NCBI GenBank assembly: GCA_963920665.1
Contig: OY987271.1
Coordinates: forward strand, 5,149,350-5,213,349
Source of the DNA: Straminergon stramineum
Lineage: Eukaryota; Streptophyta; Bryopsida; Hypnales; Calliergonaceae
Length of the DNA stretch: 64,000 bases
Direction: 5' to 3'
Positions 27,276-49,060 of this stretch are shown piece after piece (the stretch's first letter is position 1; each line of letters begins with the position of its first letter). A program made the position numbers and the translations under genes. Under the pieces are notes generated by a model, which did no database searches, was not told the origin of the DNA, and was given only the letters and a program-made list of their open reading frames with translations.

Positions 27276-27279
27276 AACT
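27276..27279. repeat. Target-site duplication AACT (left)
   Basis: AACT lies just outside each transposon end (27,276-27,279 and 46,884-46,887). The unoccupied sites in copy A (about 14,400) and copy C (about 63,370) have it once, in GCCCAACTCATCAAAACTC. Confidence 0.85.
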
Positions 27280-27304
27280 AAAGCCTTATTCGTTAAATTG
27301 AGAC
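27280..27304 (+). repeat. Transposon left terminal inverted repeat
   Basis: Reads AAAGCCTTATTCG then TTAAATTGAGAC. It is the inverted match of 46,859-46,883 with one difference at base 3. Confidence 0.9.
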
Positions 27305-27946
27305 AAGCAGCGGTCTCATTTTAATTCACTTCTATATTTAGAAAACAAAAGAGTTCATTAAATTGAGACAATTCAATAAATTGAGACTTAAAAATGTCCA
27401 AGTAATTTTTTAATTAATTTAATTATTGCTATAAATAGCAGGAAGAAGTCGCATTCATCTTTTGAACATTTTTACTTCATTAAAAATATACACTGTAAAT
27501 CATGCAAGATGTCATCAATTGAGACATTTCTTGAAATTGAGAGGTGCATCTACGGAAGGACTAATCTTTAGGTTGTTGATACCAAACTTTAACATCTAAG
27601 ACATCTTTATTACAAAACATTCAAATGAATACACTTAATGTAGAACATTCGAGAGAAATAAGAAGATAAAATATACTATTAATAGAAATCAACAATTGTA
27701 ACACAATCAAACTACCCTAATAAAATGGACAAAATATATTTTTGCGAACATCTCAAAACATGTAAATGCAAAGTCCATGCCACTTCACACCCTACAACAA
27801 AAACTACTTATATACCTATACACTATAATTCATCCTTCCGCCATAGACTCATCATCGTCTGAATTAGCCTTGAAGGCTTCCACTGATGCTTTGATGATGT
27901 CAATTTGAGGCTTTGGAATCACCACCCTTGGATCTGAAGTCCCCTC
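27305..27946. other. Transposon left subterminal region
   Basis: AT-rich, no gene. Direct AAATTGAGAC words (27,357-27,385, with relatives near 27,517-27,545) may be transposase-binding subterminal repeats (inference). The rest, to the transposase stop, is probably its 3' untranslated region. Confidence 0.5.
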
Positions 27947-30671
27947 TTACATACGAGGCTTCCAAGCGGTCATGATACAATCTGTGCTCGACCATGTTGG
28001 GGTTATTGCTCGATCTTCACGCCACACATTCCCTTTTTTTGTGTCCCATCCATCATATGTTTCCATGTTAATGTGTCGATCTGAAGCTGGCGTCCAATAT
28101 TGGATTTGGATCATATTCATATGTCCTGGATCCGGATTTGGATTCGTAATGGCTCTAGCAAGCCATAATGGCTTGGAGTCACCGTTAGCAAGCCGCACCA
28201 CGACAAAATAACCTACGAACGTATCGTGATTAACACGGAAAGAAGCACGGGGACGATCACGCCTTCGTCCAACAAAGGGTGCATCCTCTACATCCCCTTC
28301 AGGTAGTGTACCATCCCTCTCCCTGCGTTCTTCCTCATCATGGATGATCCTCGAAGCCGGCCAAAATCCATGTAGTAATGTCTCACGCGGCTCTAGAGGT
28401 GCATCAAGAGCTTCTCGAACACCTTTCCAATACTCTTTTATAGGGCCATTTTTCCTCCTGAATTCTCCAGATTGGTCATCGTCTGCCATTCCGCTCCAGT
28501 GTGCAATGAAACCGTTCAAACCTCTCTTGATCTCATCGAGAGAACGCATCTTCTCCGGAACTAGAGGTGGTGGATCACCGCTTGGAAGTATTGGACATCC
28601 ATCTTCAGTCTCAGACCACAAGCGAATTCCTTTGCTGTCCTCTGGCAACCATTTCTTGTCCATACACAGATTTTTATACTCCATCAAAGGCCATCCACTA
28701 GAATCCATGTAAAACTTGAACTGCTGGGACCTAGAATGACCTTCCAAAAAATCTCCTCTTGTGCCCAAATACCCATCTACATATCCCTTGAAATCAAGAA
28801 CTTCCTCGATGAGATGAGGAATGACGGGATGCGTTTCGCAATCCATGAAGGATTTCATGAGTTTCGGAAGTGTTGGATAGTTGTTTGTCTTCAATTTAGT
28901 GCTCCACCGACTAAAAAGAGCGTCAATGTCTTCATGAGTGTGCCCAACAATGAGGAAATTGATGTACACTTCGCGGAAAATCCCTTTGTATATAAGTAGG
29001 GAACAAAAAGCAAAAACCCATCTATTTTTATTGTCCCTGATGCATTATCCAACTGCAAAGTCAATATTGGTGGTAAAGGTTGAGCTAGAATTGCTTCTTC
29101 CTGAGGAGGAAGGAGAGAGTCCAAGCAAATATTTGCCTCTTCTAGAATCGCCTTGGTTAATGTGGATTGCGTCTCCTTTTCAGAGAATAATTTGTGCGAT
29201 GAATTCTTTGGTGGTTCTTCAACATCATGCAACAACTTTGTGATGCACCCGATGGTATGATTTGAATTTGTCGAAAAAATGTCTAAACTGTAGTGTGCAT
29301 ATCGAACATCTCCATGCACATGAGCAATTATACCCGTAACTACAACAGGCATTTTCATGTAGGAATCTGTTGATTTAGTTTTGTAAGAGAAGTGTGGAGA
29401 AGAGGTCTTGGAGTGATCCACTTTATCATGGATAGCATCTTCTCAGGATATGTTTCAGAAACATGTGGATTTGCATAGTACAGTTCTCTATGGGCCCTTT
29501 GGCCCACAAGGTGGGTATCCAAAGCAGCGGTCCACCCCTCTTGCGCGTACGAAAGGGGAGTGCATGCGCTCCTCAATAGCTTGTATCTATCACACAAGCC
29601 ACATCTAGCGAAACTGTCTCCACGTGCTTTTGGAGCAAATTCTGGGAAAGAAGCACGTTGAATGTTGCTCAAGCCACTCGAAGAAATTGGTTGCAAATTT
29701 AAAGTTGCATTGGCCTCATTGATTTTTGGTAATTGATCACTCCACCAAAATGTAGACGGCAAAACCATTGCAGGGACTTTCTCCCCTGATTCCAATGTCC
29801 TCGTTTTGTGTGGCATTTTGTCAGCTTCAGGAACCACTAGTGTCCGAAGTGTTGCAACAACTTGCACAATATGTTTCCGTGGTTTTTTGGACCCCAAATT
29901 CCCATGCGCCTCTTCTTGCTTCCCATCCTTAGCCATCTCTTTGTACCTATAAAAGGTAGCTTTCGAAATCCCATGAATGGTCCACCATGTAGTGGGACAC
30001 ACTTCCCTCCCTTTCAAAGTAATCTACTTTTTGCCAGCAGGATCTTTGTGGATCTGCCTATGCACTTCAAGAAGACACTTCTTCCGAGCATATACCCCAT
30101 CGTTTACATGGAGTTCAAAACGAATGGTTTGAATTTGCCCACGCGGAAAAGGGTGCAAACAATTGTTTGGACAACAAGTTTTGGTAGAGACTTCAATGAT
30201 CGCTTGAGGAACCAAGAGGGTCTCTTTTGGGGGATAACTGAGCTCCATTCTCTCTCGAAAGCTTTCATAGGATTGAACCCCTTTACGAATTCTTCTATTC
30301 GTAGCATTCATGGCCGTGTTATAAATATGCGTCTGGTCATGGTCATACAAACTGACACCAAAGAGAAAAACTCTCTTGATGTGCCAAGAGTGAATTGACC
30401 ACATCCACCCGGTTGGGACTTCTGCCTCGCACAAGGACTGTGCAATTTGAACGGAAACTCGATCATCACCAAGAGGCTTCCTGTCGTTGTCTACCACAAC
30501 ATCTGGGTCGACACTTTGTAAGACTGCATTTGCGACATCGTCCCCTGCTTCATTACGGAGAGTGACTGGTTTAAAGTTCCACTTCACACGAGGAATCCCG
30601 TCACATGTGCAGACATCAGGGTATAACGTAGGCACCGGGTTTGCAAAATCTTCAGGTCCGTGAATATCCAT
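27947..30671 (-). pseudogene. DUF7869-type transposase, broken
   Basis: Read from about 30,671 (MDIHGPEDFANPVPTLYPDV, just after a possible CCGTAG acceptor) down to 27,947. The order matches large plant and invertebrate DUF7869 proteins: a Cys motif with CCPNNCL; a short region with REVCPTTWWTIHGISKATFYRYKE; RGDSFARCGLCDRYK; HLVGQRAHRELYYAN; IHDKVDHSKT; LQLDNAS followed by a DNKN-like stretch; FLIVGHTHEDIDALFSRWS; and a C-terminal WLARAI plus TYDGWDTKKGNVWRED. The LQLDN and GHTHEDID acidic residues look like a DDE-type catalytic core (inference). Three lesions are visible: an in-frame TAG at 30,022-30,024, a 1-bp shift near 29,440 just before IHDK, and a 1-bp shift near 29,027 just after LQLDNAS. 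The family name is from memory of motif patterns. Confidence 0.75.
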
Positions 30672-32184
30672 TCTACGGGCTAGAGCCAATAGGTGAATGA
30701 GAACAATTATCTCAGATACGAGAACAACACATAATCGTCTAAATGTATCACACTCAACTTCAAACAGAAGACTATATGAAATATACATTATACACAATCT
30801 ATTTTTCAATATATTACAAAGAGAATTCATATCTTCAAATCGATGTGAACTCTTAATCAATTGGAATTGTAGATAACACAAATCAAATTAGCTGACACAC
30901 TAATCACAAAATACATATGTCCATCCTCGAACCGAGGATAGAGTAAAGAATTGTCTTTACCTCAAAATTTGTAACTACAAAACGTTTCCTCGTGAATAAT
31001 TTCTAAATATATTTTTGATATGAAGTAATAAATTCAGAAAGACTTCAAGAGACAACTAACAAATGATTGGTCCAATAATGTATAGGAAATTTTGACTATT
31101 TCTAAATGACGTATAATGTGACTCTATTAATTAGCAAGTTCTTAATCATATAGAAAGTAGAATGTGACTGTCCAATTTAGAAATGGGTACCATCGACTCG
31201 ACGATAATCGTGTGTGAAACCAAAAATGTAAACCTTCCAACATTATCAGATAAAGAGCTTCTCATCAATTACGAGATATACAACATACGACTTCTGAATA
31301 TATAAATCTCACATTCATGACAAAATAGATAATACTAATGTATTCATAAATAAAATAAATATCATCGAATCGACGATAACAAAACCTATAAACGGACATA
31401 AAGGCTATCTTCAAATCTAAGATAATGTGTTAGAGACATTCCAAGGAATACCAACAGAACATAGTCGAATAATGTACGGATGTATATTATCAATTTATAA
31501 AACAAATGAAAATGAAAGGATTATGCACGAAGTAAAAATGAATACCATTGAGTCAACAATATCCTCTTGAGAAAACAAACATATTAACCTTCCTTAGTTA
31601 TAATCTAACTTGGAATCCAATATAGCCTTATCGATGATAGAGGTCATTCTTGAAAATGTGACTTATCCTCGAGTCGACAATATGACCATCAGACAAATAC
31701 TTTTCTAAAATGTTTTACAATTTATAAACTAGGGATCCAAATTACGAGATTTAAATATCGTCGACTCGAGGATAAAACTTCTTGAAATATAAACCTTCCA
31801 TCATTAGACTTTAAGATGGATATCGCCCATTACAATATAAAATCGATATAATTCATAGGAATATAAAACTAAGACCTATCTTTGTGTCGACGATAAGACC
31901 CACATATTACTAAATTAAATGGATATAGTTGACTCGAGGATATGATGAATGAGTCTCAGGAATGCAAACCAATCTATCTTCTCTTGGAGTCCACGATTCT
32001 CAATTACATATTGAGTTCTCTTGATATCGTCGACTCGACGATATACTCTATATTGATATAATATAGGATCCTTTGTAATTTTCAGCGAAAATGTCGAGAA
32101 ATGTATTCCTCACCATCTCGATGATGCACAACACCAACACTTGCATCGGACACAATAGCAATCAAATTTCTATGTTTCACTCTT
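30672..32184. promoter_or_regulatory. Upstream region of transposase with nine-palindrome cluster
   Basis: AT-rich DNA just 5' of the minus-strand transposase. It carries 19-bp palindromes at 30,922, 31,188, 31,360, 31,543, 31,664, 31,756, 31,877, 31,924 and 32,025 (first bases). The copy at 32,025-32,043 is perfect: TATCGTCGACTCGACGATA. Spacing is irregular, 47-266 bp. Upstream introns or promoter of the transposase probably lie here. No other gene is supported. Confidence 0.7.
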
Positions 32185-32401
32185 TTGCGAATGAAACTAA
32201 TAATCGAAAATCAATGGGATTCCGGTACAACAATAACAGGAAGTAGTGCGTACTCTACAAATGATAAGTCAAAGCACAATACTACTTACAAGCAACTGCA
32301 ATCAAGGTACACACTCGTCTTCTTAAAGTCCCTACTATCTAAACAAGCCTATTGGAAACAAATGAGGATTGGAAATGCAAAAAACAAAATGCTGAAGCGT
32401 C

Positions 32402-32590
32402 TTCTCGGTCAGAGATGAGCAACTAAAAAATGAGAACGATCAAATGGCGCGGCTGTGTAGGCAAAACATAGTTGTGACGTCAAAATTGCAAAGGGGAGAG
32501 CTTGAGCTTCCGCTTTCGAGGGGTGCGGAAGAATTGGCACAGGAATTCAAATTCTTTGGAAATACATGGCATCTGACAATGTTCGTGGTC
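32402..32590 (+). pseudogene. Possible captured exon, coiled-coil-like
   Basis: A GC-richer island in AT-rich DNA. The plus frame through 32,444 reads VRDEQLKNENDQMARLCRQN, then ELELPLSRGAEELAQEFKFF, with heptad-like charged and leucine spacing. There is no supported start, partner exon or named family. It could be a host exon fragment carried by the transposon. Confidence 0.25.
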
Positions 32591-32676
32591 CACTTTCTGT
32601 GGCAGCACTTAAATGCCTCTTTATGTGCCACTTTGTGTCAGCTTTGCGGCATAAAGATGCGGTTGAAGAAGAAAAG

Positions 32677-32846
32677 CAGCCCAGAAAGGGTTTCTATAAT
32701 ACCAGCCCAGAAAGGCTTTACTAAGACCAGCCAAAAAAGGCTTTACTAATACTAGACCAAAAGGCTTTACTAATACCAATCAAAAACAGTCTTTGCTAAT
32801 ATCAACCAAAAAAAGGCGTTACTAATACCAACCAAAAAAAGGCGTT
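32677..32846. repeat. ~25-bp tandem repeat in transposon
   Basis: About seven degenerate units of 24-26 bp built on ACTAATACCAACCAAAAAAGG with CTTT or CGTT following. Later units are shorter in C and richer in A. Confidence 0.85.
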
Positions 32847-33027
32847 CGTTTATAGTGTATCTACTATTCATATCATTGTCTTAATTTTTGTTCATGTGAC
32901 TATCATTAATAGGGGATTCCTAATAATTGCTTCTTTGCTTATACTTTGTCCAGTGTCCAAGTTTCTTAAAAAATCCTTCCTTCGACGGTTTAAGATCCTA
33001 ATTATGTACAATGTAGGAATCACGCCT

Positions 33028-33065
33028 TAGGGTTTAGGGTTTAGGGTTAGGGTTTAGGGTTTAGG
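33028..33065 (+). repeat. Interstitial telomere-type repeat (TTTAGGG)n
   Basis: About five and a half TTTAGGG units, one of them shortened to TTAGGG. This is the plant telomere type. A two-unit CCCTAAA stretch in the opposite sense lies at 34,377-34,392. Confidence 0.9.
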
Positions 33066-34149
33066 ATTATGAACAATTCTAGATTTCTAGGAAAAAATTT
33101 GGAATCTACTAAGTTTCTTAGGAGATGCAATTTATGTGAAGTTCATCGCTTGATTGTATGAAAGTATTCTTTAACCCCTAAAGTCCCAATGTGCTTATGG
33201 GGGACAACATGGATTTCAGGTACATTCCTATGAGCTCCTTTGTTAGTGGTTTTTTAAAAACTTTCTCGTAAGATATAAAAACTTATTAGCTTTGGGGGAA
33301 TATAGTTTGTATTTCAATTAGTGTTCGGGAGCAGAAGATATGCCAAAATAACCTAAAAATGGGGAGAGCTGGAAGCAAACAAAATTTGTAAAAGATTGGT
33401 TGTTTTTTAAAAAAAAATTTATTCTTGTAGATTATATTTTTGTCTAAATGGGAAGCTTTGATTCATCCTATTTGGATTAGTGATATGATAGATATAGAGT
33501 TCCTTATTTACCAAGCAATTGGAAAGTCTTATTCAAACCAAAAATTTCTTTCACTGTGAATGCTAATACCTTTCAATGCAACATAGTCAATATATGTTTG
33601 TATTTAATTTTTGTGTTGAACTATAAAGTTGGGGGCAAGAGGAATTTGAAAATTGAGCAATTTAAAAATAAATAAAATCAGTGAAATTAAAGATCATGTG
33701 CCTATGCAAAGCTTGTATTCTACCAAGAATACAATATAAGAATTTAGATATACATTGGGATGAGGGAGAATACTTGTATGAGTTGTAGAGGTTGCATGGA
33801 GGGTGACCAATGTAGCTGGTATGCAACAATTATAGCAACTCTATTATAGCCCTACTCTTCTAATACAACTTCAATGTAGGCCTAGTCCTCGAGTTTCAAT
33901 GATTTTTCAAAAACAAATGAAAAGGGTCCAAATTGTTTTTTAGATTTCCTTGGGAATATGAACTTTGGACCTAGTTTGTTGATTTTCTAATTTTAGAATA
34001 GTATGATAACTTTCATTTATACCATGCTCTTATGCATTAAAATATAATGGTACTAATATGGTGAAAATTTCAGATTTTTTGAGTCTTCACGATAAGTAAG
34101 ATTGTTTTTCATTTTTCTCTTAAGAATTTCACAATAATTTGAAATAATC

Positions 34150-34510
34150 TCAAAGTAGAATTTCAAACCTCATTTGGGGCATAATAGAATAATTTTTTTC
34201 AAAAAACTTGGATCTTTAAAAATTTGTGAAATGAAGGCAAGTTTCATTTACAAAAATGGATTTGAGATTTGAAGACTCGAATAAAAAGTTATGGACACAT
34301 ATCAAAGAGAATGTTTTTAATTGACCAAAAAAATATCTCTTCCAATCCCTCTCTAAAACTTTTCCATAACTTTGACCCTAAACCCTAAACCTCAAAAAAA
34401 AAATTTAGAGATTAAACTTAGCTTAATTACCCACTTTTTTTTAGTTCAAAGTTTTTTGAAAGAAGGTATTCTACTATGCTAAAATGAGGACTAAAATTCT
34501 ACTTTGAGCA
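34150..34510. repeat. Diverged foldback element inside transposon
   Basis: The left arm, about 34,150-34,207 (AAAGTAGAATTTCAAACCTC), is inverted at about 34,451-34,510 (CTAAAATGAGGACTAAAATTC). Arm words and loop length (about 243 bp) match the copies in the host array. Confidence 0.7.
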
Positions 34511-36954
34511 CAATTCCTGCATTTTGACAATGAGTGGTCAAGCTCTCATCTTCAAATTATCCCATACCCTAAGAGGATTCATGATGGACAATTCATTATT
34601 AAAGGATGTTCCCACCTTGATTTTGAGGAAAGGTTCATTTAGAAACAATACTAATGAAGTTGATGGGGACCTCAACTGCGACTTGCTATGATGTTACCTT
34701 ATAGCATGTCAAGATGTTTTGAAGTCCCCATAGTAGAAGCTGTGTTTCTAAATTATAAAAGAATGCCTCGGCTGAGTGTTGCTACGACAAACCTTGTAGC
34801 ATCACAAGATGTTTTGAAGCACATCCTAGCATCATACCTTTCTACATTTGGATGACATGCATGTCAATGTTTTCACATACCTACACACGTGCTCCTATAA
34901 AATATTAAATCCTGCAAACCATAGAACATGTGAGAACGTTCAGAAAAATTCATTGCTAGAATTACTCTTGTAATGAATGTTTGAAATTTTTTTTCATCGA
35001 CATGTTTTATTTCTAATTCTAGGATGGGGAAGAAGCCTAGGTCCTGGATAAAGAAGAATAAAGTAGAAAGGTGGAAGGATGTTTGGATTGAAGATCACAA
35101 CAAATATGAATGTTTGTTTTGCAAATATATCATACCCAACTTTTAATGATTGGTACATATATGCCTTTCAGGACCTCTTACAAATTAAATATTTACCGTG
35201 TTTTAGTGAAAAAAAAGTTTTTAATAGTAACCCTTGAAAATTGCCTACAATATTTTTTGAAATAGTCAAGGGTATTGTATTGCCTACACAATGTCAAGCC
35301 TAAAATTTTATATCAACCATGAATAGTTGATTGGACAATTAGGAATAAATAGAAATATTCATTTGGCATTGGAAATTTAGTGCCTAAAAACGATATGGTA
35401 TTTCAAAGTTTATATCTAAATCACACAACTAACACTCAAACCCTACAATTGACACTTGAATTGTGTACACTGCTCAGTCGGATGAGTAATGACTAGAGGC
35501 CATCCATCAATTTTGTGACAATGGCCCTTCTCCAGGTACACCTGACTTATTCTCCAGGGTTGTATCTCACTACCCAATAATACGGATTGACTTCATGGTA
35601 TACGAACAACTTATTTTAGAACCACCCTACACTTCCCAATTTATCACGTTCAACATTTTTTTCCACTTGGTGTTTTGACATTTGGAAATTGTACTTAACT
35701 ACAATATGTATGATAGGAAATTTTTTTGCCTTCAATATAGTCTCTTATTGTGGACCTATAGCCTATTGTATTCTCCTTTCATCAAAAGTATGGTGAAGTA
35801 GATGGTGAGTGTCTCCAAACCCTCAAGCGTTAAGAGGTTAAGGGCCTTAAACTTTATAGATGACTTAAGAAAATAATGTTGCAATCTTTTTTTAGCTAGT
35901 GCTAACCAATTTTTCGTTCAATGTAGAACAAAAGAAAAATTTGAAATACTCTATAGATTCTTTGTCAAAAAGCATAAATCATACAAAATGCGTTGACTTC
36001 CAATGAACACTTCCATTTTCTTACAAATTCATTATGTAATGCATTTTCAAAATTTCCATGGTCAATAGTATGTCTTATAGGGAATACAAAATTAACCCCT
36101 GAACGTTGTGATGGATGTTTATTGTCCACTAAATGACAAGGAATTTTCCCCTATAGGTCAGAATTGCAACTATTCATCCTCAGAATTGGGGGTGGAATAG
36201 AAAGTTCTAAGGTGCATGATATCACATAATTTGAAAATGACTGATTTCCATGGTCACCAATCCGACATTCAAAGGTTTACCCCTAAGTGCCCTAGACACC
36301 AAAATGTTGTGTTTGCAAAACTTTGGAGTTAAAGAAAACACTAACAATTGGCTATTTTGAGAAGCTTGTATTTCTAGAAAGTTCTCTTTGAAGTTTACTT
36401 TTAGAATTACAAATCTGATTTTGAAAATGAATGATATTGATTTTTCTATCCAAGATTTTGTGCAAGGGTACCCATTGCAATATGGACTTTCCATAGTGTT
36501 GAGGGCTCTTGGAAATGAGCCTCAAATACACTAGATCTTTGAGAAATAATCACATTCAAAATTCATTTAAAAGAATTGTAGAGTATATTTTGAAAAGCCA
36601 TAAATTGATTGGGATTATGCATGTTAGGCCCTCTAATCTCATATTTTTTTTGGTCATCTATCAAACTTTTTAGATTTGACTTGTGAAAAGAGGATTGAAA
36701 GGCTTCACATCACTTTTCCAGTTTTAACACCCTCGTAGTCAAACATTATAATCTTTCACTGCATAAGTAATTTTTTTTTCCTATGTGATCTACAATATGT
36801 CTACTTTGAATTTGTATGGTTACAATTAAAAAAAATTGATACAACTTATCAAAATGTTGGCATTTTCTTCAACTGAGAGCAAATACCCCAAAACTCAAAA
36901 CAAGCCTTGGGCATTTAGGGGTTAAAGAACTTATAGAATAACCGCACCTCATGT

Positions 36955-38140
36955 TCGGATCCAAACGTGTAGGTTCAGCATCCATACAAGGGTTTGGGAA
37001 AATTGACGAACCTCCATACCAAGGCTGAGGTTCGGAACCGGGGTAGTTGGTTTGGTGGAGACCAAACCTCCTTTGGTGGCTCGGCGTAGCCTTGGGAGGT
37101 CTTCTCTCTCCCTTTGCTGTGTGTCGCTGTATGAAGCTCGTTGTGTGAAGTTGCTGTGTTTAGGGTCTGTGTGAAGTCGTTGTGTGAAGCCTGCTGTGCG
37201 AAGCTCAGTGTGTGAAGCTCACTGTGTGGAGCTCGCTGTGTGAAGCTCGCGAGTGTTGGAGCTCTGTATGAAGCTCGTTGTGTGAAGCTCGCGAGTATTG
37301 GAGGAGTGCACGGGCAGCTCATGAGTTGCGTTTCAGTGGCCGCAGACATAGAGGGAGGCTTGCGCGAGGGTTACTTCACCCTAAACGCGGATTTACGGAG
37401 TGTGCATTCTGTTGGTGTGAAGCTGTGAGTTGAAGTTCGCATTCAACTGTGTAGTTCTACGGTCTGCGCCAGTTGACAGAGTTCCCAACACTACACAACT
37501 TTGTCAAATTTGTGAGCTTCTTCTTTCTTTCTCACTACTTTTGCTAGTTATTCATGCATTGTTTGATTGTTTTGATAGTATTGCTAATTTTCTTTTTAGA
37601 AGTGGCTTACTTGATAGTTGATTGTACTTGAATGTTGGGCACTGCATTTTTTCCAAAGGCTTGGAATCACTCTGATTCCAATACTGTGGTTGCACATTGA
37701 CAAAGTAGAGGTGTTGTTGTTTCAGAATTGGATTTCCGTTGTTGGTTTTGTTTAAGAATTGGGTTTTGATTGTTGGATTTTGGAATTTGTAGTTCTGCTT
37801 TCGTGAATAATTGTTAGGAATAGGGTTTTGAACATATTTTTCTCAAATGTGGTGCTCATGGGCGTTGCTGCATTTCACGTTGACTTCTAAAACAAAGTTG
37901 TATGTTTAAAAATCTCTGAGATTCCTTTTCTGTGCGTACAGGTCTGTACTCCAATAAGGAAGAAGTGCCATTTCAATCTCCAAAAGCATTCAGGAAGTTT
38001 ATAGCATAGTGAGGTTTCAGGTATTCAATCTTATACAAATAAGTCTATGATTTAGGGTTTTAGAATCTGAGTTCAGTCTTAGTACACAATTTTTGTTTGC
38101 AAATTCTCCAATTTTAGGGATTCGCTTATTCAAAAGCATG
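36955..38140. other. Upstream region of right-hand gene block
   Basis: A GC-richer stretch (36,955-37,500) with ~14-bp tandem words, then AT-rich DNA with no supported gene up to the right palindrome cluster. It may contain promoter and leader of the 38,881 gene (inference). Minus-strand ORF 36,975-37,349 is repeat-derived. Confidence 0.4.
37117..37302. repeat. ~14-bp tandem repeat GTGTGAAGCTCG(C/T)T
   Basis: About a dozen imperfect units of GTGTGAAGCTCGCT type with 1-4 bp changes. Part of the block (TGAAGCTCG...GCGAGT.TTGGAG) is itself repeated. Confidence 0.85.
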
Positions 38141-38833
38141 TATTGTCGAGTCGAGGATACGTTACAAACCTAGTGAACAAATTATTCTGTAGAGTCCACA
38201 TGTTTAGGGTTTTGATCATCGAAGAAACGTATCGTCGACTCAAGGATATAGTCGTCCATGATAATCTAAACAAAAGTTTGATAACTAGGAAATTCTAATT
38301 CCCACATTCCCACCGAGGAATAACTCTGAAAATGCAATTAATAGAAAACGCCGCCTCCCAGATCATTTCCCTTATCATCGAGTCGACGATACCCTCTTCG
38401 ATAAAGAATTTACGAAATGACATACTAGAAATTCAAGAAAATACCTCAAATAGGTACTAGATCCCACCTCTATCATCGACCTGACGATACGTTCAATAAG
38501 AATTAAAGATAAATCCACCTATCCAACGAGAAAACAACTACAAATTAATGATCAAAAGAAACATCTGGACGTCATTGTCATGAAATATGGCTAATTTCAT
38601 GCCCTAATTCCGATGTCAGAGGAATAAATCACTAAGATATTAACAAATGAGGGTTAATGTTGATAGAAATCAATATCAATCCTCACAATAATTTTAGCCA
38701 ACACCCTCACCTAAATCCAGTTGCCATCGAGTCAATCATTTTTATACAACACTTAAAAACCATCACCCAATTGTATGCCCAATGCAATTTCTCCTCTAGC
38801 AATCCAAATGAACTTATCGTCGGATCGACGATA
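38141..38833. promoter_or_regulatory. Right cluster of 19-bp palindromes
   Basis: Palindromes at 38,141-38,159, 38,230-38,248, 38,373-38,391, 38,471-38,489 and 38,815-38,833. The last ends 47 bases before the ATG at 38,881. A further degenerate match lies near 38,722. The placement mirrors the left cluster upstream of the transposase. Confidence 0.75.
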
Positions 38834-40302
38834 GCTCAATTTCTAACACATTCACACAAATCATTTGACAAGATCAAAAGATGGAGAAGCAAGATCTCTA
38901 CGATTACTCCATAACAGCGCATCATCTTCAGCCATTCGTAAACCCCTTGAATGATGAGCCCTTCATCGATGAAATGGCAGATAGCTACATAATGCTGTGG
39001 GAGTTCAAAGATCATATCAGCACATGGACCTTCAGCGTGAACCGTTGGAAAAATTATGTCTACCTTAGATACCGAATTCAGGGAAAAACAAGTTACCTAC
39101 CTTGGAATATGAAAGAGAAGGTGACAGTGATTGAGGATCACCAAAGCAATTATGTTGTAATTGTGCTCTGCGAAGTTGACGAGAATGGAAACCAAAAAGA
39201 CCACTGTCACTCTATTGTCATCAATGTAAATTCTTATTATGGGAAGTTTGATCTCGAGAACCTCATGACATTCTTGGAGGGGTCGCAAATGGAGTCCCTT
39301 AATGAAGAATTTGAGAAATCTGGCTATGTTCCCTGGAAAAATGGCACTGCAAAGTCTAATGCGACTAGATTGCGCCGTATTTTCCAAACTCTTGATCGAT
39401 ATGCATTGGCAAATGTCGAGCCTGCACCATCAATCGGTAGAAACCCCTCACAAGGCCAGAGAGGGGAATCTGAGAGTCGTCAACAAGATGGATTTGCAGC
39501 CGGTGGTTCAGCGAGCAAAGCAACAAGACCAGGTCAGACGAAATCGGCAACAAGAAAGAGAGACAACACTTCAATAGAAGCCCCTCTCTCTAGCAGGAAG
39601 AAAAAGAGAAGTCTTCTCGGAGGAGTTGTAGGTGCTAGAAGTTCAAGATCAACGCTCACGACTGTATCGGCAGGTTCAGCATCCTCCGATACTCCACAAC
39701 CAGACTATGAGAAGTTTGCTTTAATTCAAAGAAACTTCTGAGCTGACCATAAGGCTTGTTTTTTACTCAGCCAAGAAACAGTATCCATGGACATCAAATA
39801 GTGCATCCTGGCAAGTGATCAATATGTCATTCGAACACTACAGAAGGATATCGTTGTTGTTGTGAAGAATGAACTCATTCAACTGATTGACATGAAGCAG
39901 AGGTAGAAGGTCTGCCTTACCCTCGTCGATTCTCATAATCAACTTTTGAAAAAGAAGCCAGAGAAGTGGGAAGAAATCATGAATGGGCGGTTTATGATTA
40001 TCAACGGTCAACACAGCATCACGGCTTCAAAAGAGCTTCAGAAAGGAGGCTGTGGAGAATCCCGCCGAGTAGAGCTTCAGACTTGGGATGCTTTCATTGT
40101 CTGGACCCTTGATCCAAACAAATTAAGAAACATCTCAAAATTCTACAATTGCACTCATCATTTGGATCATGCTCAACTAACGTAGGGTAACCAAATCATT
40201 AGCTGCCGAAACATCTAGCTGGCCTGCAAGCGCCCCACGGATGTTCACTTTGAGGATTTAACTCGGAACAATAAAGCCGTCTTCAGCTTGACGAACTATA
40301 AG

Positions 40303-40540
40303 GTATGCAATTGGTCTTCCTCATTATCATCGAGTCGAGGATAACCTATTCGTTTCCTATGAGAATGTAAGTGTATATTGATAATATTGAATATGAATAA
40401 CTCTACGGTTTACTACTGTTTAGTGCATTACTTTATGTATGGACTATCTATGTTTTTATTGACATAGTTTTATCGTCAACCCGACGATAGTACGAAAACA
40501 AATTCTACCGTTTTCATGACGGATTGTAACAGAATTATTG
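40303..40540 (+). other. Putative intron with two palindromes
   Basis: Donor AAG|GTATGC at 40,302/40,303; the acceptor is uncertain (near 40,530-40,545). The 19-bp palindrome occurs at 40,325-40,343 and 40,471-40,489. Confidence 0.45.
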
Positions 40541-41883
40541 TATCGGAAAGTGCGGAGCTTTACGGATGCAGTTGTCGAGAGATTTCAAAATATTAATCCT
40601 GAAAAAGATGGTGTGTCAATCAAAGGGACTACAGATCTGAAGAATGAAATTTAGATCATCACCTTGCCCGATGATCTCTGGGCATTCTGGAATTGATTTC
40701 TGACAAAGCATTCCGAAGGCAAGCTGATGGAGCTAGTGTCCTTGAAACTATTCAAGGAAAATTAAAGGTTTCAAGATTAAAGCAATGTCCTTGAAAAGAG
40801 AGTTTTTCAAGCACTGCGGATGGTTCACGAACATTGACTTTGGAGTTTTTGCGTAGCACTTGCTAGGTGAAACTCCAGGGCGTAAATCAATATACCCGAA
40901 AGTCTCTATTGCGAGAACAAAAATACTAGTTCCCAACAACATTGCGCATGGTGATTGGGTAGAGCGGAGGAAATGCAAGAAAGTTGTTCTACAGGATTTG
41001 ATGGACTTCAAACCGTCTCTGAAGTTCATAGACAATGGCAGCGATGTCATTGATGCGACCTGGAGAGCATGGAAGGCGAGGCACCAGTTTACTTCCGCGT
41101 CGTGGGATTTCCTTCTCTTGCATCCTTGTGTTGAGTATTTTAAGAAATGACTTAGGAACGATGCATGGCGGAAGTGGGCGAAGGATCTTGACAAACAGTT
41201 TCCGGAGGTCCTATACATGTTCAAGAGGTTTATGAAGCTGAAGTACCAACTTCCTAAACCTGCCGGAGGAGTGCAGGTACGGGGAATTGACTTCATTGCC
41301 AAGGCGCTCGTCACCAGCACAAATTATACCTATCATCAACGAGAGGTTAACTTGGCTGTCTTGGATATTAGGGTGGTGCCACGATCAAACCCAACTAATA
41401 CCGAAAGCGCTGTCGAACCCTTTCTAACTTTCCTTGATCAAAAACTAGAACCGAAAATGACTAAGCCCAATATCTGGCTCTTCATTCTCGGTGGGAAGGA
41501 GGACATGAAGGCTGTAACATCTTTTGCAGCTCTGAGGCTTCCTGGGTATGACTCAGTCATATCCACTTACGTCCCCAGTAGAGCAGAGATGTTGAATAAC
41601 GAGACAAATAGAGGAAAAGCACCAGACGTGCCGCTCCTCTTCGTTTTCAAAAAAGATAATGACTTTGCCACCGCCGCCCGCATGTGCCTCAAATCAAAAT
41701 ATGACACACCTTCCGGGTGTGTATACTATACCGATCTGTCCAAGAATATGGAAGCGAAGTGGAGGATACATCCTACTGAATTGCGGATGGAATTTTATCT
41801 GGACGTACTCCAAGCCTTCGCAAAGCTAGATGAAAATGTTCTTGGCATCTACACAGGACCAAAGTTCATGCTAGCTACGAAGG

Positions 41884-42073
41884 TTAGTGTATCTTCTCTC
41901 TCAGAAATGATATTCTTGTATCTTGTATAGTTCATCAGTTTTTCTTACTTTATCTTTGAAGTACGTGCAGTCCACTGTTATCCTTGGGTCGACGATAATA
42001 TCATCTACCTTGGATATACATTCAACATTGATTTAGAAACACAAAATCTAAAATGTTTGTATGTGATCTGTAG
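41884..42073 (+). other. Putative intron with one palindrome
   Basis: Donor AAG|GTTAGT and acceptor CTGTAG|ATGTTC join ...MLATK to MFGAYFYGFS in frame. It contains the palindrome at 41,979-41,997 (TATCCTTGGGTCGACGATA). Confidence 0.65.
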
Positions 42074-42606
42074 ATGTTCGGTGCGTACTTCTATGGCTTC
42101 AGTGACAGAGAAGATGCAAAGCCATACTCGAAAATCGCTCTCCTAGCGAATAAGATGGATAAGAATGACTTCTTGATTTCAAATTCACCTTATTCGCTAC
42201 TGTATGATCGTCCCACAAATTGTGGACCTGTGGTCGTTCACTCCAACTCACCTCCATCGCCGCCCATGACATTGGAGTCGCCGCTCGAAAGTAATGTCAT
42301 GGGGAATCGCCAAAGGGAAGCAGTTGGGCCACATGTAAGTACTGATTCTGGTGTTGAAGGAATTGATCAATTCGAGACGAACACATTCTAGCTCCACACA
42401 TGGATGGACACTCCTGCTGATCCGGTTGTAGTGCAAACTCAACATGATGACGAGGATGTGGAGACCAACACCGAGTTTGAGAGACATCCAGAGGAGCACA
42501 TTGGAGAGGAATGAGGGAGAGACTTTGAGGACGTTGTCATTACCGACGTGTTCGGATCCCAGGGGAATCGTGCAGCTAAAGAAAGTAATCCCTCAACGGG
42601 ATTGGA

Positions 42607-43012
42607 TAATCTTAGTTTTTTTCAACACTTCGGGTTTACTTGTTTTGTTAGGTCTCGACTTCTTTGCTATGATCTTTTTAGTGGTTTATGTAGGAGCTAT
42701 TGCCGTTCTATTTTTATTTGTAGTTATGATGTTGAATATTAAAATAGCAAAAATTCACGAGAATGTATTGCGTTATTTACCTGTAGGTGGTATTATTGGA
42801 GTTATTTTTTTGTTGGAAATTTTCTTTATTGTAGATAATGATTACATTCCAATATTACCAACGAAATTGAGTACAACCTATTTAACATATACAGTTTATG
42901 CTGAAAAGATACAAAGTTGGACTAATTTGGAAACATTAGACAATTTACTTTATACCACCTATTTTGTTCTGTTTTTGGTTTCTAGTCTTATTTTATTAGT
43001 AGCTATGATCGT
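42607..43012 (+). pseudogene. nad6: Mitochondrial nad6 fragment (NUMT) inside transposon gene
   Basis: The stretch reads as the middle and C-terminal part of mitochondrial NADH dehydrogenase subunit 6. Stretches include TSGLLVLLGLDFFAMIFLVV, YVGAIAVLFLFVVMMLNIKI, ENVLRYLPVGGIIGVIFLLE, FFIVDNDYIPILPTKLSTTY, SWTNLETLDNLLYTTYF and SSLILLVAMI. About 135 residues of the ~200-residue protein are present, with three to four membrane segments. The native start and end are missing. It is collinear and unbroken, and the codons already spell the protein without editing. Both edges pass straight into transposon sequence (SNPSTGLDN on the left, an acidic DDDD run on the right), so it was inserted, not expressed as nad6. 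The edges are accurate to about 10 bp. Confidence 0.93.
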
Positions 43013-43469
43013 CATCACTGATGATGATGATATCGATCATCTGCACTCATCAGACGATGACGATGACACAGATGGTGTTCCCAAGCAAGTTGAGTTAAAA
43101 CCTGTCATTGCACCCTCTAGAGTGGTGGTGAAGGTCGAGAAGGACTGGTGGAAGAAAGATCAGGAAGCCAGGGAGAGGAGGATAGCTAGGCAGAAGGAGC
43201 GGGAGGAAAAAGAAAGGCTGGCTGCTGAGCTACTGGCGGGCAACAAGGCTGCAAATGAGAAAATTACTGAACTCCAAGAGAAGTCAGACACAAAATATGA
43301 CGAGCTGCAAAGCCAGTTCGCAGTGCTCATGAATGCGTTGCAATCCCAGAAGAGCCAATCGCAGAGCTATCCGATTACATTCTCTGTTGCTCCGACTCCA
43401 AATCCTCAGTTGCGGTCAGGTAGCGCTCCAGCCATGCAAGAAATGGCCCACTTGGTCAGTGGGCTGTCC

Positions 43470-43488
43470 TATCCTTGAGTCGAGGATA
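43470..43488. promoter_or_regulatory. 19-bp palindrome within coding sequence
   Basis: TATCCTTGAGTCGAGGATA overlaps the TGA stop at 43,476-43,478. Restoring the symmetric CpG at that position would make the codon CGA, and the frame then runs on to 43,937. Confidence 0.75.
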
Positions 43489-43937
43489 AGGATGAGGCGG
43501 TCTCACTAGTACATGAGGAACTCGTCATATCAACTCCAGCATCCCAGATGCCCAAGATTCCATCTCCAGATGAAGGGGCCTTCGAAGTATTGTTTCCTGA
43601 GGCTGCTCCTGCCATTTCTCGACAAGAAGACATCATTCAAGGAGATGAACATTATTGTCAAGGCGATGATAATGTTGTCAAGGAGGCAGCACCAACTTCT
43701 GCGGTTGAGCCTCATAATGTAGCAATGTGTGAAGAATCACGTGAAGTCCGGGTGGAGGTGCAATCTCTCCTTTCTGTGGAGGAAGAAAGGATGGACTATG
43801 AAGTTGGTGATGAAGACCTTCTCGACAACGATCCGGAGGAGAGCGAGAAAGGAGAGCCTTCAGCAGCAGAAATGGCACCAGAGGATCTAGAAGGAACTGC
43901 TCAGGTACAACCTTCTGACCCTTATGATTTCGATTGA

Positions 43938-44408
43938 TTCCAGAACCTTGGAGTCATTCATGATTGTGTTCGGTGATAGCAACTAGGAAGTCCTCTACTA
44001 GTTATCGAATCTCATGTGTATCCATGCTTTTTGACAGGATGTCATCGCTGCTACTTGATTGCTTGGCGTTGACGACAAATCTATCTGTGGCTACCATCCA
44101 TGTACAATAGTGAAGCATAGTGCTCAGAGTAGTTTTCAATCAACTAGAGACGTACTAAAATTTTGTGGTTGTAATATGAAGACTTTGTAAATAAATTATA
44201 CCCAATTTCCATGGATTCGCACGTTGGTCTAATTGTCTTTGGCTTTCAATGTTTCTATTGCTCAGCTACACAAAAATAAAAGCGTGCACCGTCCGCTGCC
44301 AATGAAAGCACTTTCTAATGGGAGACCGCAGTTGATTAGGAGGACTAAATGCTTCTATCCACTCTCTGGATCTCTCGTTTCTGCATTTAAACAGGTAACT
44401 CCATTTCT
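43938..44408. other. Intergenic or leader sequence before FCP1-like gene
   Basis: No supported gene. The ORF at 44,233-44,433 (basic, ending ...GSLVSAFKQ before CAG|GTAACT) might be an upstream exon of the FCP1-like gene. The only nearby acceptors would give an intron of about 40 bp, too short to trust. Confidence 0.3.
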
Positions 44409-45272
44409 TTGTTGTTTTGTTTTCATCAAGTAGTAGCGGAGGGTGGGAGAGAAATCGTGCCAAGGAATGTGCCTCCCGTACTTCCTCCACCGTGGAGGAA
44501 ATGGCTGAACATTGTCTTCGACTTGAACGGCATACTCTGCCATACAGCAATGAAGTCCTATGGGGAGAAATTCAAACCATACATGCTCGAAGACAATGTT
44601 CTCTACCACAGAAATCCCATGATCATGAGACCCAAGGTGATATTCGCTCAACAAAATCTGGGTGAATTCCTCCGACAGGTTTCGGCAATTGCGGATAGGG
44701 TCTTAATGTGGACCACGATGTTGAAGTGTAATGCAGAACCCATCGCTGGACACCTGTTCAATGGTTGTAGAGCACCCTATGATATACTGAGACAGGAGCA
44801 ATGCAAAAAGATAGAGTACTCTCCGGGAAAGTTCTTTCATCTTGCTGAGAAAGTGCATTGTTTGAAAGTCCTCTCCGAGACCTTGTTCTACAATCTGAGC
44901 GGGAGCACGTCCTTCACCTCGGATAATACGCTTCTCATTGACGACTCTCCGAACAAGAGTGTCTGCAATGAGAATGGGAATGCCATATTCCTAGACTCTT
45001 GGATGCACTATAATCGCAGAGACGACGTCCTCATGGGGGAACTTCTGCCATGGCTCAGACGTCTAGATTCGAACTGCCAACTGGGCCAATTGCAAACATA
45101 TGTCGAGGAAAACTGCATTGGTTTGAATCCATTGGGAGTCGGGGACTACAAGGTGGAGTCGCTCATAGACGGGATGAGAGAGTCCTTGAAGGTCATGGGT
45201 TCTAGATACGAACTTCCTGGCATAGGCTTAATCATAGAGCGAGGCCGATGTAGGAAGTACGCTGTAAAGTAG
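44409..45272 (+). CDS. FCP1/NIF-like HAD phosphatase domain protein, variant active site
   Basis: An uninterrupted 287-residue ORF, the only long intact frame in the transposon. Motif I is NIVFDLNGILCHT (about residues 34-46). Motif II is VLMWTTMLKCNAEPI (about 98-112), matching the WTS region of FCP1/NIF proteins. Motif III is SDNTLLIDDSPNKSV (about 172-186). The usual motif I is DxDx(T/V): the nucleophile Asp is present but the second Asp is Asn here, so general-acid chemistry may be weak or lost. FCP1/NIF proteins dephosphorylate Ser/Thr, best known on the RNA polymerase II C-terminal domain. The real N-terminus is uncertain; MLFCFHQ may be intron or leader, with the protein proper beginning near PRNVPPVLPPPW. 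Why a transposon carries it is unknown. Confidence 0.7.
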   Translation: MLFCFHQVVAEGGREIVPRNVPPVLPPPWRKWLNIVFDLNGILCHTAMKSYGEKFKPYMLEDNVLYHRNPMIMRPKVIFAQQNLGEFLRQVSAIADRVLMWTTMLKCNAEPIAGHLFNGCRAPYDILRQEQCKKIEYSPGKFFHLAEKVHCLKVLSETLFYNLSGSTSFTSDNTLLIDDSPNKSVCNENGNAIFLDSWMHYNRRDDVLMGELLPWLRRLDSNCQLGQLQTYVEENCIGLNPLGVGDYKVESLIDGMRESLKVMGSRYELPGIGLIIERGRCRKYAVK

Positions 45273-45480
45273 ATTCTTCTTAGATGTGAGATAACATTTT
45301 GTGTATAGTCCTCCATTTGTACGCTACAATCTTTTGTAAATAATATATTGAGTTCGCATTTCCCTTGAATCTTTGCCATGGACTCGGGGGTTTACTCTAC
45401 ATGTCTTCCAGTCTCAATTGAAGATGCTTTTGCATTTGTTGGACGGAGGTAATGTGGGTGGGCTTATTGATCATATATGT
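45273..45480. other. Short spacer, probable 3' end of FCP1-like gene
   Basis: TTTTGTAAATAATATATTG (about 45,331-45,349) is AT-rich and could hold polyadenylation signals. Nothing else is seen. Confidence 0.35.
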
Positions 45481-46242
45481 ACTGCAGGTTGGAGGCGTTT
45501 GCTTTGTTGAACCATCGAAAAGGCAACGGTTGACTAGAAGTCTCCTCTCTGGATCGGAAGGTCGCTCTCCAACCCCTCGGAATCCAAGGGGGGGAGTTGC
45601 GACACCGCTCTGTATTCCAAACCGTACTTGCTGCGGTCTACTGCGGACGCTGCATCCGTGGCCATAGACTATTCCAAGGGGGACGTTGAAGATGGGGTCA
45701 TGGACAGCCCCCCGAGTCGCGGACCTGTGAGGACTCCCATATGCTCTCTGTCGCCGTTGAAGCGAGCATCCTCGAGTCATGGGAATTCCTTCTCGCCAAA
45801 ACCGCGAACGGACGCAGCAACGAGTCGCAAACTAAAACTACCCTTGCATGAAGCGCCGGGACATCCTCGGCTCAAAGATGATGTTCCAACTCCGTCTGCA
45901 GGTCCTAATGTCCGCATCGATGGATTGAAGTTGGCAGCTGTGTTGGAGGATGATAGAGGGGGGGTGTTACGGAAGCCGACTACTGATGTTACTGTTCTTC
46001 AGATTGAGGATAAGCAATCTCGTCTCTCGCAATCTGTAAGAGCCAGACGATCTCCTTCTGCCGATAGTCTTTTTAGGCAACGAATTTTTAGAGAACATTG
46101 CCATTCGCTGGACTCCAAAACAAGAGGGACTCCACTTCCGGACATAGATGCTGTCAATGTGTCGCTATCGAGGCAGCCTCGTGGAGGGTCAAGATTGCTT
46201 TCGGGTTCAAGGGCCCCCCAAGCCACTCGAAGGTCAAAGTGA
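45481..46242 (+). pseudogene. Basic Ser/Pro-rich ORF, frameshifted, probably captured
   Basis: The first frame reads EPSKRQRLTRSLLSGSEGRS, then PTPRNPRGGVATPL. A 1-bp shift near 45,610 joins it to the frame ending at 46,242, which continues YSKPYLLRSTADAASVAIDY, PPSRGPVRTPICSLSPLKRA and RARRSPSADSLFRQRIF. Composition suggests a disordered nuclear or RNA-associated protein, but I recognise no family. GC content is higher than in neighbouring DNA. It lies between the FCP1-like gene and the right terminus, and looks like host coding sequence carried by the element. Confidence 0.4.
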
Positions 46243-46858
46243 AAGGAAAATGGAGCTCAAAGCTTGAGCTTATGCGAGTCTTTGGGGGGGGGGGAAGTGG
46301 GCCGCACTATCATTCTCAACGTGAGGATATCTTTAAAGGACTAGCAAAGCTCAAAGCATTGGAAGCAGCTAGGAGCAATTGTACAGAAATAGACAAAGTA
46401 AAGATTTCACCATCAACAAGTAAATCAAACAAGTAAATATTTCAAAGCACTTAGTTTTGAGGTACCCTTTACTATTAATAGTATAGTAAGTAGACATACA
46501 AATATACTTTCAGAAGTTCAATGCTTCATACACAAGAAACTGCTACATTGATTCCATTGAATCTTATGCCTTCATAGTTCATTCACTACAAAGAATATTT
46601 ACATACTCTTTTTGTATTAAACCACACAAGTAATTCCAACTTACTCACTTTGAAATGACTCCCTTTCTTTGTACAGAGTACTTCACATCTTCTGTTGTAT
46701 TGATGCAATTATAATCTCATGTGTCAAGTCAATTGGGGTAGCTTGTTCAAGGCTTTCTATTGTTGTTACATGGCCGGCTCTACATATCGTTGGGTTCAAC
46801 AACTCTTAATTCGCTAGAGCTTTGCATCCATTTTTCAAAGTCTCAAAATTGTCATTTT
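46243..46858. other. Transposon right subterminal region
   Basis: AT-rich apart from an 11-G run at 46,284-46,294. No gene is supported. TCTCAAAATTG (about 46,840-46,850) is a partial copy of the terminal GTCTCAATTT word. Confidence 0.5.
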
Positions 46859-46883
46859 GTCTCAATTTAACGAATAAGGCCTT
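46859..46883 (-). repeat. Transposon right terminal inverted repeat
   Basis: Reads GTCTCAATTTAACG then AATAAGGCCTT on the plus strand and pairs with 27,280-27,304. The next 4 bases outside are AACT. Confidence 0.9.
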
Positions 46884-49060
46884 AACTCATCAAAACTCAA
46901 TGACACTATTTCACATTCTCCTTGATTTCAAAGATTTTACACTTGCCCTTACTTTTGAAGATGTTCCTTGCACAATGAAATATAATTTGAGGATATTCCA
47001 CATTGAATGTTGATGATATAGAGATATTGTGACATAATTTTCAATCACTTTGAGAGCCACATGCTTTAGGAGACATGTCAAGAGTGGATAAGATGCTTAT
47101 AGAAGTGGGGTAGTAAGAGGTAAAAGAAACCATGTGGGATATGTAAATTAGAATGACTAAGAAATCAACTCATGTCAAAGTGAAGTGAAAAGTAGGAATT
47201 ATGTTTAAAGTAGAATTTGAGACCTCATTTTGGCATAGTAGAATAACTTATGTCAAAAAATATGGAAGGAGAAAAGTTAGGAAATCAAGCATAGTTTCAA
47301 CTCCAAAAACCCTTTGGGATTTAAAGTCTCCAATCAAAAGTTATGAACAAATTGTAGAGAGGGTTGGAAAAGACATTTTCATTGATGTTTTCAAACATCC
47401 TTTTGTGAATTTTGTTCATGAATTTCTTTTGGAGGCTCAAAATCACCAACCGGATTTTGGAAATGAGATTGAGCTTGATTTATCAACTCTTTTTAGTTCA
47501 AAGTTTTTTGTCATAATTTATTTCACTATGCCAAAATGAGGTCTAAAGTTCTACTTTGAACATAATTCCTATGTTTTGAAAATGAGCAATCAAGTTCTCA
47601 TCTTCAAATTGTCCCATACCCTTTCAAAATTCATGGTGGACAATGGATTTGATTATAAAAGCAACCTCTCCACCCTCATTCCTAGCACATGTCAACCATA
47701 TAATTGTTTTCAAAGACTATCATATTTTATTAAGAGATGTGATTGCCAAATAGTATATTGGTTCTTGATTCAATTGGTCTTGTAGGTGTTTTTGTTTTTA
47801 TTTCAATTGGTAATTAGGAGTAACCTCTCTATTAGGCTAGAGGAACCTATAGAGAGTCTACCTCCTTGCTACCACCTCCTTCTACATTGGGTCAAATTTA
47901 TTAATTCAAAAAATGTCAAAGAAGTACTTTGGTTTGAATCTAGGATAGAGGTTGTCAAAGACCCTGCCTCAGCTCTTCTGGGCCTTCCCAAGCAAAATTC
48001 CATGTAGTGTTCATTACCTTACTCATTTTGCCCACGGAACATGAAAAATGACATTGTGCCCCATAACTCCTGATACGCACATCCGAATATCCGATTGTAA
48101 GTTTTTTTTTGTGAAGTGGCAAGGTACTCCTCATCCCTACATCCCAAAAAACTTTCAAAAAATATAGGGAATTTTTCTATTCGTAGTGAGCTCTCCAAAA
48201 TCACTATGTTGCCAAAAAACACAACTTGGTCCTTTAGGGGTTAATTGGATTACAAGTAAAATATTATCATTTTATTAGTACAATTTGTTGGAATGGATTT
48301 GAAATGAAGCTAACTTCATCTTAGGAGATATTCACGATGAAATCGACAATAGACAATTGTGATGACTGGCCATGGCATACAAGGTATCCATTATCACTTC
48401 CATTGAGGGAGCTCTTGCTACTTTCTAGGGCATGAAGCGGTTGAAAGAGAGCCCTATAGAGATGATGGCTCTACAAGATTTCTTTGTCAAAGATGTCATC
48501 TTAGCCAAAGCTAGGTAAGTAGTGTTCGTACCATAATCCATTTTTTTATATGAAGATAAAAAAATATTACGATAATTTGCTTCGTCCAATTATTTTTCGA
48601 AGTAGAATGAAGTTTTGGAGTGGAACTCGTTTCCTATAGAAGCTCATGTAGAATAAGCCAACCCTTGTGCTACTAGTTATGGAAGAGCTAATTAGGGTTA
48701 TGGGGATGGATCCATACACCTATTACTACTGTGCACCATCCTATCGAAGGCTGAAGCATGAAAATATATCTAGCCCCATTAGAAGACGATGAGTTCCCCA
48801 CATGGGGGGACTCAATGAACTACACCACTTTATCGTGATGATGTGGTGGGGAGGCACCACCTCATATTTTTATATTTTTTTATATTTTTTATATTTTTTT
48901 CTACCTATTTTTCTATTTCAAGGGAAATAATAATAATAATAATAATAAGTATTTATGACGGTTGATAGCAGTTAGCCAATCCTTCACTACTATAGGACAA
49001 TCATGGGGAATTGGTATGAAACGGCCTCCTCTCTTCCCCAAATCTCATCTAATGGATGTC
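46884..49060. repeat. Copy B continued after the transposon
   Basis: Matches copy A 14,402-16,620 closely. It includes the foldback at 47,193-47,571, a decayed exon-like segment at 48,325-48,518 (stop in TTTCTAGGGCATG) and a short (AAT)8 tract at about 48,926-48,949. The ORF at 47,201-47,539 spans the foldback and is frameshifted in copy A, so it is not a gene. Confidence 0.75.
47193..47571. repeat. Foldback element, copy B
   Basis: Arms 47,193-47,261 and 47,503-47,571, the same as the copy A element at 14,713-15,092. Confidence 0.85.

Follow-up and report, generated by a model that had tools for sequence, protein, structure and literature searches.

Why would a plant transposon carry some twenty copies of one short palindrome, and what would read them? 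The question is raised by a 64,000-nucleotide stretch of the moss Straminergon stramineum (assembly GCA_963920665.1, contig OY987271.1, positions 5,149,350 to 5,213,349), referred to throughout as the window, in which a tandem host array is interrupted by a DUF7869 transposon containing the 19-bp palindrome TATCNTCGANTCGANGATA and close variants of it. The element is placed in this class by a PF25273 domain together with terminal inverted repeats (TIRs) and a target site duplication (TSD) of a fixed 4 bp, and the host array copy at 14404-14407 represents its empty insertion site. Two divergent gene blocks are present, one containing the transposase and the other beginning with a gene here called gene R, whose exon limits were inferred from homology and splice-like signals. 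The restriction of the palindrome, where checked, to one transposon family and the change of its spelling together with gene R suggest that the element tags and controls its copies through DNA recognition.

At up to three mismatches TATCNTCGANTCGANGATA has 20 matches in the window, spanning 30,830-43,671. In 100 dinucleotide shuffles the expected count was 0.10 per window with a maximum of 1, which rules out a chance origin, and with the half-site permuted about 200 control palindromes gave a mean of 0.4 and a maximum of 4 matches. The original prediction had confined the motif to one transposon and found none in the host array; this holds, as all 20 sites lie within the element (27,280-46,883) and none outside it. 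Clustering upstream of both gene blocks and recurrence in introns were likewise correctly described. On the left, one site is found at the 5' end of the transposase frame and nine from there to 32,200, while on the right five lie upstream of gene R, two in intron 1, one in intron 2 and two in the downstream coding region, where only a single coding copy had been claimed. Most of the 18 copies originally counted were correct, with 17 matching at two mismatches or fewer, but 31,543 is weak (four mismatches) and sites at 30,830 (three mismatches), 31,406 (two) and 43,653 (three) had been overlooked. No palindrome at up to three mismatches is present in gene R exon 1, exon 2, 32,201-37,900 or 43,941-46,883. 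The cluster upstream of gene R keeps near-identical relative positions in many close sister copies. Fragment L047 also has two sites, 176 bp apart compared to 183 bp for the coding pair of the window, with alignment around the first.

Across the 326-Mb host genome there are 2950 palindrome sites at up to two mismatches, compared to 77 for the reversed pattern. For classification, the 50 exact sites listed for contig C1, all in its first 22.5 Mb, served as a sample. Of these, 39 belong to sister elements, with a transposase or gene R match no more than 22 kb away, and 11 to 255-bp miniature inverted-repeat transposable elements (MITEs) with related TIRs (ten with both TIRs, one with a single TIR); none of the 50 falls outside the family elements or MITEs. 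On these counts a general genome repeat is rejected. Where examined, the motif was neither common outside the family nor absent from sister elements, apart from L063 and L065, which do not have this spelling. The TIR pattern occurs at 305 + 340 places at up to three mismatches and at none when reversed. The transposase has 116 matches in the genome and gene R exon 1 (OrfA) 136. Gene R stands head to head with the transposase, 3-40 kb away and mostly at 9-14 kb, in 85 of 111 copies and is missing there in the other 26; this count used 111 of the 116 transposase rows and 116 of the 136 OrfA rows, those omitted being among the weakest and mostly short fragments.

MITE-type TIR ends number 874 + 858 in the host genome. 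The first 20 MITEs on C1 not previously read, picked by exact TIR and not by palindrome, each carry one palindrome (up to three mismatches) 43 bp from one end, and 11 of them have a perfect 4-bp TSD. These 20 form one family, and the presence of the palindrome therefore represents one founder event. Special conservation of the palindrome after insertion was tested in the same 20 and not found (0.89 vs 0.92).

Comparison of diverged subfamilies by blastn included the window element, L040 (66% gene R identity) and L039 (35%). Gene R exon 1 aligns over most of its length between the window and L040, and in parts against L039. The 1.2 kb of upstream DNA gave only three matches between the window and L040 (20-23 bp), all at palindromes, and none against L039. 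Within intron 1, each of the three pairs gave a single palindrome-centred match (21-33 bp) and nothing else, and two intron 1 palindromes are common to all three subfamilies. Palindromes recur after the first splice donor in clades A, M and B and in a deeper clade, where a three-mismatch copy lies 80 bp past the matching donor. The palindrome had been proposed as a protein-binding site, and a selected, element-specific site of this kind is strongly supported, through its confinement to the family among the 50 sites classified, its conservation in sister elements and its standing as the sole blastn-alignable DNA in the diverged upstream regions and intron 1. In L039, six palindrome-like sites at up to three mismatches are arranged at an exact 32-bp spacing (L039:1724-1902).

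The palindrome spelling tracks one element gene, gene R. Positions 5 and 15 of the palindrome differ between clades: T at position 5 is found at 0 of 189 sites in A (30 loci), a count that is not of independent sites because many A sites are orthologous, at 0 of 32 in M (4 loci), and at 75% of 114 in B (11 loci). The window site at 31877 is an exception to this rule. Gene R exon 1 sequences of A/M (34 loci) and of B (8 loci) fall into separate clades of the tree, each with support of 1.0; the B loci L061, L062 and L064 were chosen by transposase (59-60%), with gene R seen in L062 only (8 kb read).

The most distant DUF7869 element examined (transposase 49%) has no TATCNTCGANTCGANGATA-type palindrome and carries two copies of a related palindrome with the same core, ATCACCTCGANTCGAGGTGAT, whose pattern occurs genome-wide at up to three mismatches 93 times (vs 2). 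This is the spelling used by the deeper clade. A second ATCACCTCGANTCGAGGTGAT cluster 14 kb from that of this element was located by the pattern alone, and the DNA beside it holds a gene R relative of ~27% identity (E 1e-34), with which a genome search gave at least 120 matches (120 of 451 candidates scored). Among 50 listed ATCACCTCGANTCGAGGTGAT sites of the 93, 42 lie at -6 to +25 kb of a gene R relative, compared to 1.1% of random positions, and 26 at -6 to +5 kb, compared to 0.4%, with rounded lengths for contigs C4 and C10 in the random null. The remaining eight lie away from such relatives and include two ATCAGCTCGANTCGAGCTGAA sites at C4:25.9 Mb. Most listed variants have the core TCGANTCGA in common and differ in the outer arms, and some read TCSANTSGA. 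A ATCAGCTCGANTCGAGCTGAA-like spelling is found at three places, each with one site that precedes a diverged gene R relative by ~0.65 kb (Table 1).

The longest homologues of gene R exon 1 are ~480-500 amino acids with a conserved FMIINGQHSIxAS box, and family libraries (Pfam, NCBIfam) gave no match to gene R better than E 0.019. The AlphaFold model of exon 1 is weak, with a mean predicted local distance difference test (pLDDT) score of 42 and no Foldseek match at E<=0.001. Closer structural alignment of this model gave 13 best rows that are all ParB, Noc, KorB or PadC, and a ParB/sulfiredoxin fold is predicted for the C-terminal domain on the strength of this weak model. The GxxR and ENxxR boxes, which bind cytidine triphosphate (CTP) in ParB, were not seen in the exon 1 alignment, where NGQHS and YNxxNH occupy their places. 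A ParB-type CTP clamp was hence rejected despite the predicted fold.

Exon 2 gave a model with a mean pLDDT of 53 overall and a better C-terminal half. Foldseek matched it at probability 1.00 and E 1.8e-4, with 20 rows at E<=0.001, and the 50 rows listed in each of two structure searches are DNA/RNA amino-methyltransferases, from which a beta-class adenine-methyltransferase fold is predicted. Motif IV, DPPY, is found in 0 of the 31 exon 2 sequences shown (of 32 aligned), with mostly DxRxxP in its place, and the fold is for this reason predicted to be catalytically dead; motif I is also degenerate. The palindrome has the centre GANTC, which is also the target of CcrM, a possible hint that the methyltransferase fold of gene R reads the palindrome core. 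The window copy of gene R contains in-frame stops, with open frames broken at 39741 and 40185, and 28 of the 30 best genome copies have in-frame stops within the first 286 codons. A sequence search of the PDB returned two V-ATPase chains (E 5.2 and 7.3) for gene R query A1 and none for query A2. With the same queries no gene R relative was confirmed in viral contigs, eight stretches of which have the exact palindrome, and phage records gave protein matches at chance level only. No bacterial source of gene R was found, and one relative labelled uncultured Leptolyngbya is probably plant DNA in a mixed sample.

We infer that the gene R product is the binder of the palindromes, that it dimerises and that it opens chromatin against silencing. 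Probably as a dimer, this protein would occupy the two-fold symmetric sites, whether these precede the two divergent gene blocks or lie within introns or MITEs. Such binding would keep the regulatory DNA of the element and of its non-autonomous MITEs open against host methylation, and in the open chromatin transposase could be made and be able to act. That the palindromes are cognate sites of the gene R protein, serving sequence-specific anti-silencing or expression control of its own element, is a reading for which we judge belief and doubt to be evenly weighted. Among the possible roles anti-silencing is judged the most likely because the sites are internal, flank promoters, lie just inside intron 1 and are present in gene-less MITEs, and by analogy with VANC21.

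The palindromes may alternatively be operators only, with silencing playing no part: an element-encoded repressor or activator would use them to auto-regulate transcription of both divergent gene blocks. Clusters precede both blocks in the window, and gene R in L040, L039 and L106, as this would require, and KorB, a ParB-fold transcriptional repressor, is among the fold matches. However, sites are also present in the first two introns and within coding sequence, and the 255-bp MITEs carry them yet have no room for gene blocks, making control of this kind alone unlikely.

TnpA binds subterminal repeats of Spm, and the palindromes could similarly be accessory sites bound by the transposase or a helper during transposition. 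MITEs need only mobilisation, yet all 20 sampled keep their site at the same distance from one end, and the transposase co-varies with the palindrome clades. Nonetheless, in the window element the site nearest to the left end is 3.5 kb away from it and that nearest to the right end 3.2 kb (three mismatches each). In a second element (L053, L054) the terminal 3 kb on one side hold a three-mismatch match only and the terminal 3.6 kb on the other hold none, and the element ends have their own repeated GTCTC motifs. We regard an accessory role as rather doubtful. The original prediction had offered a regulatory operator, a transposase site or a partition-like site. The best fit is a site for an element-encoded protein with predicted ParB and pseudo-methyltransferase folds. 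A plain transposase site is a poorer fit, since the terminal 3.2 kb on each side of the window element are free of palindromes, and partition is unsupported beyond the predicted ParB fold. Partition or copy tethering would involve parS-like sites and a spreading ParB-like clamp for segregation or copy clustering. It could draw on that fold and on the many dispersed two-fold symmetric sites, but a chromosomal element needs no segregation system and the CTP-binding boxes of ParB were not seen, the gene R box being NGQHS, which leaves it very improbable. A neutral repeat or small mobile palindrome without function, of which MITEs would have spread one copy each, is scarcely credible given its absence elsewhere among the 50 listed exact sites, the retention of palindromes where flanks became unalignable and the clade-specific spelling on a common core.

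For the gene R system a wider history is put forward tentatively. A plant DNA transposon may have acquired a module of ParB and an adenine-DNA methyltransferase, which then gave up catalysis and turned into a fast-diversifying palindrome reader. Each clade, with its own reader and its own palindrome on the TCGANTCGA core, would release from host silencing no copies or MITEs but its own, possibly with ParB-like spreading, in a manner convergent with and independent of VANC. If true, transposons have evolved sequence-specific self-recognition on more than one occasion and out of unrelated protein parts, which in this case would be a ParB-like fold and a dead adenine methyltransferase. With its several diverged pairs of reader and palindrome, this one genome would provide a natural series for studying how a DNA-binding specificity and its dispersed sites change together, and such pairs might serve to open chromatin at chosen loci in plants.

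Table 1. Positions of the element, its genes and its palindromes in the window, and of related sites elsewhere in the genome.
Feature	Position	Strand	Remarks
DUF7869 transposon in tandem host array	27280..46883		19.6 kb; 26-bp TIRs 27280-27305 and 46858-46883 (one mismatch)
TSD AACT of the element	27276-27279, 46884-46887		4 bp
Transposase gene	27947..30887	-	DUF7869 in C-terminal pieces; PF25273 E 6.6e-33 and 1.3e-11, two overlapping frames
Palindrome cluster 1, upstream of transposase	30922..32043		30922, 31188, 31360, 31406, 31664, 31756, 31877, 31924, 32025
Extra sites by cluster 1	31543; 30830		31543 weak (4 mismatches); 30830 (3 mismatches) just left of cluster
Palindrome cluster 2, upstream of gene R	38141..38833		38141, 38230, 38373, 38471, 38815
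Gene R exon 1 (OrfA)	38881..40302	+	N-terminal domain, basic linker, predicted ParB/sulfiredoxin-fold domain with FMIINGQHSIxAS box
Intron 1 palindrome of gene R	40325..40343		22 bp past 5' splice site
Second intron 1 palindrome of gene R	40471..40489		
Gene R exon 2	40542..41882	+	Start approximate, by homology; predicted beta-class amino-methyltransferase fold without DPPY
Intron 2 palindrome of gene R	41979..41997		
Downstream coding region	42074..43940	+	In-frame mitochondrial nad6-like stretch, PF00499 E 6e-25
Coding-sequence palindrome pair	43470..43671		43470-43488; 43653-43671 (3 mismatches)
NIF/FCP1-like phosphatase-fold gene	44391..45272	+	PF03031 E 1.3e-11; E 1.2e-12 in sister copy
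ATCAGCTCGANTCGAGCTGAA-like places	C4:26151088-26161105; C2:26359095-26368105; C3:18804251		

Several other features of the element and its host were observed. The NIF/FCP1-like gene has DLNG where the phosphatase motif DxDx(T/V) is expected, and its sequence marks it as possibly a second dead enzyme in the same element. The last frame of the right-hand gene block has no Pfam match. The nad6 stretch in the coding region downstream of gene R (42603-43013, PF00499) has land-plant complex I chains as its best solved relatives, and is apparently a mitochondrial insert captured by the transposon. A short run of plant telomere-type TTTAGGG repeats is present at 33027-33065; like the nad6 stretch, it points to a land-plant host. 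The window contains no Rfam match at the gathering threshold and no tRNA. DUF7869 is very abundant in the host genome, with at least 152 matches (best 150 of 862 first-look candidates scored), and gave no match in any of 14 control genomes. Contig C11 (17.4 Mb), possibly a sex or heterochromatic chromosome, holds 60 of the 116 OrfA rows and 49 of the 111 transposase rows.

In 5.39 million open-licence papers no mention of DUF7869 was found, nor, among the papers listed, any ParB-type system tied to transposons or demethylation. If the weak model of exon 1 is right, gene R resembles ParB, Noc and KorB, bacterial binders of parS or operators, in the fold of the exon 1 C-terminal domain. A further likeness is that the sites are palindromic and dispersed. 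Gene R differs from these proteins in its NGQHS box, with ENxxR not seen, in being encoded by a plant transposon and in the methyltransferase fold downstream. Beta-class methyltransferases have motif IV before motifs X and I, and gene R shares its predicted fold and motif order with M.RsrI, CcrM, MTA1 and METTL3-METTL14. The beta-class N6-adenine DNA methyltransferases differ from gene R, in which DPPY is absent (0/31) and motif I degenerate. The known sites of TnpA from En/Spm and MURA from MuDR are subterminal or in TIRs. According to PMC10398659, these are element proteins linked to demethylation of their own element. The palindromes differ from their sites in being internal in the two full-length elements examined here.

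VANDALs are Mutator-like elements marked by a VANA transposase and a VANC protein, whereas the present element has a DUF7869 transposase and a 4-bp TSD, and gene R gave no convincing Pfam match, to VANC or otherwise. Gene R has predicted ParB-like and pseudo-methyltransferase folds, and the palindrome of 19-21 bp contrasts with the 9-base YAGTATTAY motif of VANC. PMC5735166 places VANC21 within its own element at introns, intergenic stretches and terminal non-coding DNA, and PMC5735166 and PMC10398659 describe it as removing methylation at bound places, with related VANCs using different motifs. The likeness lies in a short motif repeated upstream and in introns of its own element, differing between related families together with the protein, and in some cases set in tandem arrays, as are the six L039 sites at 32-bp spacing (PMC5735166, PMC10398659). 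In the moss element, as in VANDALs, element-specific clusters of a non-coding motif diverge with an encoded protein, and by this analogy the putative anti-silencing or control system is probably convergent with Arabidopsis VANC.

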